Source: Roseburia sp. AF12-17LB (GTDB lineage Bacteria > Bacillota > Clostridia > Lachnospirales > Lachnospiraceae). Taken from it: a stretch of 64,000 nucleotides of DNA. A model generated the notes under the pieces. It worked only from the letters and a program-made list of their open reading frames with translations, was not told where the DNA came from and ran no database searches. Below, one piece after another: positions 22,586 through 25,669 of this stretch. The number at the start of each line of letters is the position of its first letter. The stretch's first letter is position 1. The DNA is taken from positions 283,455 through 347,454 of the forward strand of contig NZ_QUHR01000003.1 in assembly GCF_003479605.1 (NCBI RefSeq). The letters are read 5' to 3'. The position numbers and the translations under genes are program-made.

Positions 22586-23281
22586 ATGCAATGTCAATCA
22601 TGCGGAACACAATATCCAGATAACTTTAGAACCTGCCCGAACTGCGGTGCACCGGCTCCAATGCCAAACCAGCGTCCATACAACGGACAGCCAAATCCTT
22701 ATAATGGACAGCCCCAATTTAATAACGCTCAGCAGAACCCTTATAATGGACAGCCTCAGTTTAACAATGCTCAGCAGAACCCTTATAATGGACAGCCTCA
22801 GTTTAACAATGCTCAGCAGAACCCTTATAATGGACAGCCTCAGTTTAACAATGCTCAGCAATATCCTTATGGCAATCCATACGCTGCACCGAATCAGGTT
22901 CCACCGGGAATGAGTAAACACGATTTCTATCATTCTCCACTCTGCAAGAAATACAGAGGAAATATTATTGCTTCTTCTGTTATCATTTATATATGTGTAG
23001 GAATTAATCTGCTTCTTATTGCTTTTTTACATAATTATACCTCACTGATTGATGCTGCAATTATGCTCGGACTCGGACTTGCTATTCATCTTGCGCAGAG
23101 CCGTGTATGCTCCATTTTACTTTGTGTCTATGGCGTCATTAATACCATTTTCGTATTCCTTTCGTCGGGAGAGTTTGGCGGATGGCTGATTCTTGTGGCA
23201 GCAATTTATGCTATTGTGGCAACTTTCCAGTATCAGGGTGCTTGGAATAAATATAACAGGAATGGTCAGATTCCTTATTAA
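22586..23281 (+). CDS. Zinc-ribbon membrane protein with Asn/Gln-rich tandem repeats
   Basis: 231 residues. A zinc ribbon opens the protein (CQSCGTQYPDNFRTCPNCG, two C-X2-C). Residues 33-95 are four tandem 14-residue repeats of NPYNGQPQFNNAQQ. The rest has four hydrophobic segments, ending with a short polar tail. The architecture (zinc ribbon, disordered linker, small membrane domain) is common in Firmicutes proteins of unknown role. A GGGGGAG lies before the ATG. Single gene; it ends directly before two AT palindromes and the T-box of the next gene. Confidence 0.8.
   Translation: MQCQSCGTQYPDNFRTCPNCGAPAPMPNQRPYNGQPNPYNGQPQFNNAQQNPYNGQPQFNNAQQNPYNGQPQFNNAQQNPYNGQPQFNNAQQYPYGNPYAAPNQVPPGMSKHDFYHSPLCKKYRGNIIASSVIIYICVGINLLLIAFLHNYTSLIDAAIMLGLGLAIHLAQSRVCSILLCVYGVINTIFVFLSSGEFGGWLILVAAIYAIVATFQYQGAWNKYNRNGQIPY
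22694..22861 (+). repeat. Four 42-bp coding tandem repeats
   Basis: Copies start at 22694, 22736, 22778 and 22820. Copies 2 to 4 are identical except for the last base of copy 4; copy 1 has several silent changes. They encode NPYNGQPQFNNAQQ. The near identity suggests recent expansion, and copy number may vary between strains. Confidence 0.95.
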
Positions 23282-23298
23282 AATATATCAATATAAGT

Positions 23299-23342
23299 GA
23301 TTAAATTTAATCATACACAAATGTACTTTTTTGTGTTAGTAT
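23299..23342 (+). promoter_or_regulatory. Tandem palindromes and weak promoter before the leu T-box
   Basis: A perfect 14-nt palindrome GATTAAATTTAATC (23299-23312) is followed by an inverted repeat ACACAAA...TTTGTGT (23315-23321, 23330-23336). A candidate promoter, TACACA (23314-23319), 17-nt spacer, TAGTAT (23337-23342), overlaps the second repeat. The placement fits an operator. The palindromes could instead be a weak terminator of the preceding gene. Confidence 0.4.
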
Positions 23343-23364
23343 TACCAAAGACATTTGAAAAAGG

Positions 23365-23625
23365 CTATGAAAAGGAATAGTAACTGTCAGGAATTCTCTC
23401 AGAAAGCCGCCGGTTGATGCAAGACGGCAGAAGGAATACAGTGAACTCGCCTTGAAGCTGCCGGCTGAACCCTATAGTAGGTCGCGACGGACTCCCACCG
23501 TTACCCGGGAATAGCATGATAGTGCTAATGAGTGCATGTAACAACATGAAACAGAGTGGTACCGCGAAGGTTTTCTTTCGTCTCTATGATTCATCTTCGA
23601 ATGATAGAGACGGAAGATTTTTTTT
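23365..23625 (+). promoter_or_regulatory. T-box riboswitch, leucine specifier (CUC)
   Basis: Stem I shows the AGUA (23379-23382) and GAA (23443-23445) strands of the specifier loop, with the codon CUC at 23446-23448, which reads leucine. The conserved T-box core is GAGTGGTACCGCG (23554-23566). A terminator hairpin follows (arms near 23579-23587 and 23604-23612) with eight U at 23618-23625. Uncharged tRNA-Leu should favour antitermination and expression of the downstream synthase. Confidence 0.9.
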
Positions 23626-23674
23626 ACGCAGGTTACGCTGCAACATAATCAGAATATTTTTTTGGAGGTTCAAT

Positions 23675-25669
23675 ATGAAAGGATACGAAAAATATCAGCG
23701 TGCATATTTTATGCCGCCTGAATGTACTTATGACTGGGTAAAGAAGGATTATATCGACAAGCCGCCTATCTGGTGCTCCGTTGATTTACGTGATGGCAAC
23801 CAGGCTCTGATTGAGCCGATGAGCTTAGAGGAAAAGCTGCAGTTCTTTGAAATGCTGGTTAAAATCGGTTTCAAAGAAATTGAAGTTGGTTTCCCTGCTG
23901 CTTCCGAGACAGAATACAACTTTATGCGCGCCTTAATCGACCGCAATATGATTCCGGACGATGTTACCGTCCAGGTTCTGACCCAGGCAAGAGAGCATAT
24001 CATCAAGAAAACCTTTGAAGCGGTAAAAGGTGCTCCGCACGCAGTCATTCATCTTTACAATTCTACCTCTGTTGCACAGCGTGAGCAGGTATTTAAAAAG
24101 AGCAAAGAGGAAGTAAAACAGATCGCCATTGACGGGGCAAAGCTTTTGAATAAACTGGCTTCTGAGACCGAAGGTAACTTCTCCTTCGAATACAGCCCGG
24201 AAAGTTTCCCGGGAACTGAAGTGGACTATGCCGTGGAAGTCTGCAACGCAGTACTTGATGTATGGCAGCCAAAGGCTTCTAATAAAGCAATCATTAATAT
24301 TCCAACCACTGTTGAAAATGCAATGCCGCATGTATTTGCCACTCAGGTAGAATACATTCACAAGCATTTGAAATATCGTGATGCCGTAACACTTTCCCTG
24401 CATCCACACAACGACCGTGGCTGCGGTGTCTGTGACGCAGAGCTTGGCATTCTTGCCGGAGCCGACCGTATCGAAGGAACTCTTTTCGGTAATGGTGAGC
24501 GTACCGGTAATGTAGATATCATCACACTTGCCATGAACATGTTCTCACACGGCGTTGATCCGAAGCTTAACTTCTCCAACCTGCCTGCAATCCGTGAGAA
24601 ATATGAAAATTTTACCAGAATGCACGTTTACGAACGTCAGCCATATGCCGGTGATCTGGTATTTACCGCTTTCTCCGGTTCCCATCAGGATGCCATTGCC
24701 AAAGGTATGGCATGGCGTGAAGAGAAAAAGCTCAACGAGTGGTCTGTCCCTTATCTTCCGGTTGACCCAATGGATGTGGGCAGAACTTACGATTCTGACG
24801 TTATCCGTATCAACAGCCAGTCCGGTAAAGGTGGCGTAAACTACATTTTGAAACAGAACTTTGGCATTTCTCTGCCAGAGAAAATGCGTGAGGAAGTCGG
24901 CTATCTGGTAAAACATGTTTCCGATGAAGAGCACAAAGAGCTGTCTCCACAGTGGGTATATGAAATCTTTGAAGATAAGTATGTAAAACGCCAGCCTTAC
25001 TTCCAGATTGAAGAATGTCACTTCAAACAGGTGGATGGTATTATGGCAGAAGCTACGATTGTTCATGGTGGGCAGAACCGCCTGGTAAGTGCCAACGGAA
25101 ATGGCCGTCTGGATGCTGTCAGCAACATTATCAAACAGTACTTCGGCATCAGCTATGAGCTGTCCATATACGAAGAACACGCTTTGAGCCATGGTTCTTC
25201 TTCCAAGGCTATGTCCTATGTAGGAATCACCTGCTATGGTCAGATGTACTGGGGTGTTGGTATCGACGACGATATCATCAAATCCTCTATCAGCGCACTG
25301 GTTGTTGCAGTAAATCAGGTTCCTTCCATAAAATCCAGTGTTGAGATTCAGGATAAGCGCTTAATGGAAATGAAGAATTACATTCAGACAAACTACCAGA
25401 CCGTTACCTTAGAGGATATGGCAAAACAGTTCCACCTCTCTGAGCCGTACATTTCCAAATATATTAAGGAAAAATCCGGTCAGACATTCGTTGAACTGGT
25501 TCAGGGTGTCCGCATGAAAAAAGCAAGAACTCTTTTAAAGAACGGAAATATGACTGTTGAAAACATTGCATACTCCGTGGGTTATCAGAATGTAGAACAT
25601 TTCAACCGCCTCTTTAAAAAGAAATACGAGATGACACCGGTACAGTACCGCAATTCCTGTAGTAAATAA
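23675..25669 (+). CDS. leuA: 2-isopropylmalate synthase fused to a C-terminal AraC-type DNA-binding domain
   Basis: 664 residues starting [12 protein letters not shown] after TTTTGGAGG. Residues 1-440 are the HMGL-like barrel of the first leucine-pathway enzyme (acetyl-CoA plus 2-ketoisovalerate): DLRDGNQ at 37-43, HPHNDRG at 243-249 and NGERTGN at 273-279 supply metal and substrate ligands. Residues 445-555 match the LeuA regulatory/dimer domain. Residues 560-664 are a complete AraC/XylS module with two helix-turn-helix motifs ([20 protein letters not shown] and [32 protein letters not shown]). Catalytic residues appear intact, so the protein may be enzyme and regulator at once (inference). 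The T-box upstream confirms leucine control. No other leu gene is nearby. Confidence 0.93.

Follow-up and report, generated by a model that had tools for sequence, protein, structure and literature searches.

Investigating a stretch of 64,000 nucleotides from Roseburia sp. AF12-17LB, the whole of which is referred to here as the window, we observed a leuA gene that continues in frame into an AraC-type DNA-binding domain and is preceded by a candidate operator, a promoter element and a T-box leader. The features are as follows, with coordinates counted within the window:

23275-23315, forward strand: candidate operator O1, 41 bp, consensus about TTAAAATAnATCAATAAAAnTGATTAAATTTAATCATT, found as a de novo motif and proposed as the site of the AraC domain
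23334-23342, forward strand: extended -10 element, TG at 23334-23335 and TAGTAT at 23337-23342
23358-23588, forward strand: T-box leader RF00230, 126.6 bits with a gathering score of 93 (Rfam)
23446-23448, forward strand: CTC, a leucine codon in the T-box leader, read from the sequence
23664-23668, forward strand: ribosome-binding site GGAGG, read from the sequence
23675-25669, forward strand: leuA-araC fusion gene, 664 aa in a single stop-free frame (open reading frame, Pfam and NCBIfam)
23768-24595, forward strand: catalytic HMGL-like domain, residues 32-307 (Pfam)
24653-24853, forward strand: IPMS_D2 post-catalytic domain, residues 327-393 (Pfam)
24941-25321, forward strand: LeuA_dimer allosteric domain, residues 423-549 (Pfam, 79.3 bits)
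25322-25372, forward strand: linker, residues 550-566, fast-evolving (median dN/dS 0.573; pLDDT below 50 at residues 556-558)
25373-25654, forward strand: AraC-type DNA-binding domain, residues 567-660 (Pfam, conservation, predicted helices)
Within the AraC part: first helix-turn-helix (HTH1), helices 579-586 and 590-601, and second (HTH2), helices 628-634 and 640-651 (structure prediction)

The CTC at 23446-23448 is presumably the specifier position of the T-box. Upstream of the operator lies an open reading frame (22586-23281) with repeated PYNGQPQFNNAQQN units, whose N-terminus we take to be zinc-ribbon-like.

A sequence-only reading of this DNA had described an uninterrupted fusion with intact synthase motifs, an intact LeuA regulatory domain and a full AraC module with two HTHs, and all of this is borne out: the 664 residues at 23675-25669 are free of stops, the quoted catalytic motifs are present in the translation, Pfam places LeuA_dimer at residues 423-549, and both HTH_18 (residues 582-660, 76.8 bits against a cutoff of 33.6) and HTH_AraC (residues 622-660, 51.1 bits against 26.6) exceed their Pfam cutoffs. 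With helices predicted at both HTHs as well, the AraC part has the two-HTH composition of an AraC/XylS domain. The synthase part reaches 796.7 bits with the 2-isopropylmalate synthase profile PRK03739/NF002991 (NCBIfam cutoff 455), and its catalytic motifs and fold are those of a LeuA of the PRK03739 type. In LeuA_dimer, G475, N476 and G477 (the GNG loop) as well as Y499 are invariant among 77 aligned sequences, the assignment of leucine-contacting residues in this domain being one that we presume. Enzyme and DNA-binding domain are both conserved in one chain, which is the architecture of a trigger enzyme.

Judged by its substitution pattern, the AraC part is under purifying selection. Among 118 fused sequences, its median pairwise dN/dS is 0.13 (525 usable pairs); the catalytic part stands at 0.058 (433 pairs), the LeuA domain at 0.149 (851) and the linker at 0.573 (2247), the sets of pairs differing between the parts because saturated pairs drop out. 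Residues of the HTHs are near-invariant in the same 118 sequences: Y592, S594, E641, F643 and R645 at 1.00, K595 and H642 at 0.98. Alignments A1 and A2 were made without L038 (genome G076, with a stop inside the match) and without some near-duplicates. The structure model has a pTM of 0.64, with pLDDT below 50 at residues 556-558, and because of this pTM the placing of the domains in the model was not used as evidence; a fold search with the whole model covered well residues 19-379 only.

The same full-length fusion, 99% identical, is present in the nearest genome compared. We sampled 396 genomes of the family, each at least 90% complete, and at least 95 of them carry a fusion reaching residue 655 or beyond, at identities down to 64% among the matches listed; this count is a lower bound, as matches were listed down to about E 4e-255, and two of the 95 full-length rows (G076 and G100) have one stop counted inside the match. 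Non-fused relatives among the matches listed end at about residue 548-577. Alignment of the C-terminal part with public genome contigs gave at least 584 stretches encoding a relative, and in all of the best 80, which were kept, the end of the AraC part is reached; among these 80 are Butyrivibrio, Roseburia, Agathobacter, Coprococcus comes, Dorea, Merdimonas faecis and Claveliimonas bilis, the fusion of the last lying on a complete chromosome, and, from the Negativicutes, Sporomusa silvacetica and a metagenome-assembled Pelosinus genome. The record of Butyrivibrio sp. MB2005 is likewise fused. A protein search of 5.8 billion sequences gave 5842 matches, of which the 120 listed all have the full domain set, and where the database gives names among the matches listed, these are 2-isopropylmalate synthase only. 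Three genomes (G017, G022 and G030) possess two leuA genes each, one fused and one plain, about 50% identical.

A search for the same domain pair in other genomes had been put forward as a check, and it succeeded in those at least 95 of 396 family genomes and in named records such as Butyrivibrio, Coprococcus comes and Sporomusa; since so many family genomes and named public records carry it, the fusion is no accident. That it arose by an assembly error or as a local accident has a vanishingly small probability in view of the at least 95 of 396 genomes, Butyrivibrio sp. MB2005 and the complete Claveliimonas bilis chromosome, and we regard this explanation as ruled out by the 99% identical neighbour genome together with the wide recurrence.

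A new finding is the 41-bp operator that precedes fused leuA genes. Motif discovery was run on the upstream regions of fused genes without any prior motif, and the dyad obtained was then extended to 41 bp. Of 105 nonredundant fused upstreams, 65 contain the dyad, ATCAA-N7-GATTA, which is absent from all three shuffled sets (0.17 with a pseudocount; the commonest dyad across the three sets counted 15), and the 41-bp motif reaches 25 bits or more in 99 of the 105 (up to 1000 bases, on the strand of the gene). O1 is the only strong match in the 64-kb window, with 49.4 bits against 7.5 for the best of 20 first-order shuffles; the sole other match above 5 bits (16.1) lies at the same place on the reverse strand. 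The operator starts 93-319 bases before the start codon, and 400 or more where a T-box leader intervenes. Its matrix shows self-similarity of two kinds, a direct repeat at 22-23 bp and inverted repeats with centres at 19 and 30.5, and as both fit, no half-site arrangement is claimed. From 87 of 100 operator sites a site model, R1, was built, as was alignment A3. Among 24 more divergent fused upstreams, nine of which were picked because R1 matched them weakly or nowhere, 16 score at least 10 bits (one of them, L338, repeats L021) and eight score below; weak operators of 14-20 bits stand at the fused loci L091, L087, L068 and L020, two of them on the other strand.

The presence of this site was compared with that of the AraC part in 142 leuA loci, at a threshold of 10 bits and with a scoring matrix trained on fused loci: AraC part and operator occur together at 107, at one (L128) the AraC part stands without an operator, both are lacking at 34, and an operator by itself was seen at none, so that the operator is found at 107 of the 108 loci with an AraC part and at 0 of the 34 without. 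The plain second leuA genes of G022, G017 and G030 (L311-L313) are without an operator, the fused copies (L016, L018, L021) have one, and in G362, which belongs to the same genus as the fused G113, the AraC part has been lost and the operator is absent. The operator follows the AraC part, not LeuA. The size of these counts should be taken with caution: because gene and promoter are inherited as a pair, they represent few independent events, and in a tree that took 122 of the 142 LeuA rows both traits change four times, with three of three independent contrasts concordant (sign test p 0.25), too few for the formal test of co-inheritance to reach significance. A conserved DNA site is present and tied to the domain, and we infer that the AraC domain is its binder; it is because this upstream site comes and goes with the AraC domain that LeuA-AraC, the first enzyme of leucine synthesis, very probably acts as a switch of its own gene as well.

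The sequence-only reading held that separate genes in relatives, with a stop at residue 555-560, would make the fusion an assembly or local accident. Such an arrangement does exist in two genomes, G088 (L180:1400-1700) and G101 (L339:1660-2100), where the LeuA frame ends in the linker and the AraC part follows directly behind in another frame, in G101 with the break at a run of eight A; both retain the operator (50.7 and 25.0 bits), and at the 34 non-fused leuA loci scored for the operator no AraC part lies within 400 bases. Each of the two may be a natural split or a slippage site, or may reflect a sequencing error. The Sporomusa silvacetica and Pelosinus loci (L103 and L138) combine fusion, operator and T-box and cluster inside the fused Lachnospiraceae clade; for these Negativicutes fusions a transfer of the whole unit is suggested.

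Transcription control had been expected to act in addition to the T-box, which holds for the window, where the RF00230 leader is present, but not for the T-box as a general partner: of 115 sufficiently long fused upstreams, counted without dereplication, a pattern search found its sequence mark in just 24. Rfam identified a T-box in 3 of 20 fused loci and in 2 of 12 of another fused batch (Sporomusa and Pelosinus), L021 being in both batches. Among 20 upstream regions fetched for non-fused genes, 11 have a T-box; the 20 include the split G101 gene, which lacks one. Most fused loci examined do without a T-box; the window keeps both T-box and operator. Two further RNA elements were noted, namely Clostridiales-1 RNA (RF01699) beside the T-box upstream of non-fused leuA (L306:122-285 and L296:229-387) and a tetrahydrofolate riboswitch (RF01831, L020:1235-1337) adjoining the fused leuA of G013.

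The position of the operator relative to the promoter is likewise conserved. Counting offsets from the first base of the operator as 0, the -10 hexamer of the window lies at +62 to +67 as in related loci; this offset is the modal one in 63 of 98 loci, the prevailing bases being T in 93%, A in 96%, A in 89% and T in 93%, and an extended TG is found in 83 of 98. The -35 position coincides with the downstream edge of the operator, and a match to TTGACA of at least 4/6 is present in 36 of 98 loci, against about 13 at random places. An operator at the edge of a weak -35 is the usual layout of an AraC-type activator. A second, weaker site, O2 (at least 5 bits, +56 to +75 from O1), occurs in 36 of the 98 loci and is missing in 62, and an equal control stretch upstream gave it in 0 of 98; where present it covers the -10 and the start, examples being L047, L051, L112 and L117.

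Searching whole genomes with R1, we found matches at E of 0.05 or lower in 74 of 80 fused genomes, the best lying at the leuA promoter in 67 of the 74; in the other seven it lies at leuC (G423 and G211), at leuDC (G207) or, weakly, elsewhere (G208, G013, G429 and G354). For 80 genomes outside the 95, which were taken as non-fused, no match falls below 1e-3; matches at 0.05 exist in 14 of them. Of 36 off-leuA places, 24 were read, chosen before their genes were known, and branched-chain genes lie downstream at 8 of them, compared to 0 of 12 R1 matches from non-fused controls. With gene identities taken from NCBIfam, operator sites precede leuC by about 80 bases in G211 (L163) and its congener G423, leuB by about 110 bases in G324, and further stand before leuDC (G207), ilvNC (G066 and G332, which share a genus) and ilvB (G198 and G297); the ilvB sites are 200-500 bases off and, like the ilvNC site of G332, weak (E 0.023-0.028). 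The gene at the match G211:C15 (7.5e-4) is not a branched-chain one, and 15 of 20 fetched off-leuA matches do not precede such genes. When 30 fused genomes were inspected directly, 2 had a site upstream of leuC and 2 upstream of leuB (one of the leuB sites weak, 10.8 bits), so regulation in trans would be rare. A large conserved regulon is unsupported, given these 2 of 30 each and the fact that both the pattern search and R1 point mostly to leuA alone; leuA seems to be the constant target, and sites at other pathway genes occasional additions.

What sequence comparison establishes is the fusion, its conservation, the purifying selection, the operator, the co-occurrence and the promoter geometry. 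Based on these, we consider LeuA-AraC to be a leucine-pathway enzyme and at the same time its own transcription factor, controlling leuA, with a probability of roughly three in four. The N-terminal part is predicted to carry out 2-isopropylmalate synthesis. The protein would dimerise via its LeuA domains and position two AraC domains at the operator, immediately before its own promoter; that it binds DNA is strongly inferred, and the dimer arrangement on the operator is a prediction. Bound at the -35 edge, at a fixed distance from the extended -10, the AraC domains would control leuA transcription, most likely activating it when leucine is scarce, and leucine entering the LeuA domain would switch catalysis off and simultaneously reposition the AraC domains; in few lineages the same site would have been added before leuC, leuB, leuDC, ilvNC or ilvB. 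Leucine as the signal is a fairly probable choice, made from the identity and architecture of the domains alone, and activation by the leucine-free form is rather favoured as the sign of regulation. The regulatory role suggested from the sequence at the outset, namely that the enzyme reports leucine status to transcription, is strengthened in so far as the AraC part is conserved, selected and tied to an operator at its own promoter, and rarely at leucine or branched-chain promoters, but the T-box does not accompany it as a general partner. The broadest form of the proposal is finely balanced: a widespread class of enzyme-regulators in which the feedback-inhibition domain of a pathway's first committed enzyme would have two outputs, one leucine-binding event stopping catalysis and resetting transcription of the enzyme's own gene (in some lineages also of leuB, leuCD and ilv genes), and which would replace the leucine T-box in most fused lineages.

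The same promoter architecture could also be read with the opposite sign, leucine-bound LeuA-AraC blocking its own promoter with leucine as corepressor and the weaker O2 lying over -10 and start. The occurrence of O2 in 36 of 98 loci against 0 of 98 in the control, at a position suiting repression or looping, agrees with this, while its absence from 62 of 98, the end of O1 at the -35 edge, where AraC-type activators usually sit, and a -35 that is often poor (36 of the 98 reach at least 4/6, where random places would give about 13) argue against it, and we judge repression possible, if doubtful. Trigger enzymes such as PutA respond to substrate, and as catalytic and regulatory parts share one chain, the AraC domain might bind DNA and yet sense, for example, 2-ketoisovalerate or acetyl-CoA in the active site; against this, the AraC part directly follows LeuA_dimer, whose counterpart in M. 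tuberculosis LeuA holds leucine at the dimer interface (PMC11057210), and a signal other than leucine appears unlikely to us.

The remaining rival denies the AraC part any role at the operator, which would belong to another regulator, the domain being a structural appendix. Operator and fused gene may indeed be co-inherited as a unit, with three independent contrasts only, but near-invariant DNA-contacting helices would be hard to reconcile with an appendix, the site is missing in G362 together with the AraC part and is likewise absent from plain paralogs within single genomes, and strong sites are absent in the 80 genomes taken as non-fused, all of which makes this reading very improbable.

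The fusion protein, as a putative regulator of its own gene, can be compared with several known systems. M. tuberculosis LeuA (1sr9, 3fig) shares the catalytic part and LeuA_dimer, with 45-51% identity of structure-aligned residues, but ends where the AraC domain starts in the fusion and has no DNA-binding part; its catalytic part superimposes on the model with an rmsd of 1.4, compared to about 17.6 for whole chains, a figure affected by the model's unsure placing of domains. In that enzyme the leucine pocket lies at the dimer interface of the LeuA domain (PMC11057210). With the AraC/XylS regulators (AraC, RhaS, YesN) the fusion has in common the C-terminal two-HTH domain and an operator adjoining the -35, a geometry that we take known members to have; their sensor, however, is a sugar-binding cupin or a receiver, and that of the fusion would be a whole biosynthetic enzyme with its allosteric domain. 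PutA, BirA and NadR are metabolic enzymes with built-in DNA-binding domains controlling genes of their own pathway; PutA-type enzymes differ in enzyme, DNA-binding fold and pathway, the sensor of the fusion being presumably the domain of feedback inhibition. Ada joins an AraC-type HTH with a catalytic domain and is autoregulatory, but, unlike LeuA-AraC, it is, as we understand it, a DNA repair methyltransferase whose signal is self-methylation. The leucine T-box acts on the same gene, presumably for the same purpose as the operator, but is RNA-based and missing before most fused genes. To our knowledge, few enzymes contain a DNA-binding domain of their own, and most of these belong to catabolism or cofactor metabolism. 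That enzymes become regulators by gaining such domains is a known theme (PMC3602430), and a search of the open literature by titles and abstract openings, with subscription papers and preprints outside its scope, found no description of a LeuA-AraC fusion.

LeuA-AraC deserves attention as a widespread and conserved protein that can be tested at once: the fusion offers a ready, sequence-specific prediction in terms of operator, promoter distance and mutants, and it is a candidate one-protein leucine sensor. If the proposal is true, allosteric feedback and transcription would be united in a single chain, that of a core biosynthetic enzyme found in common bacteria of gut and rumen.
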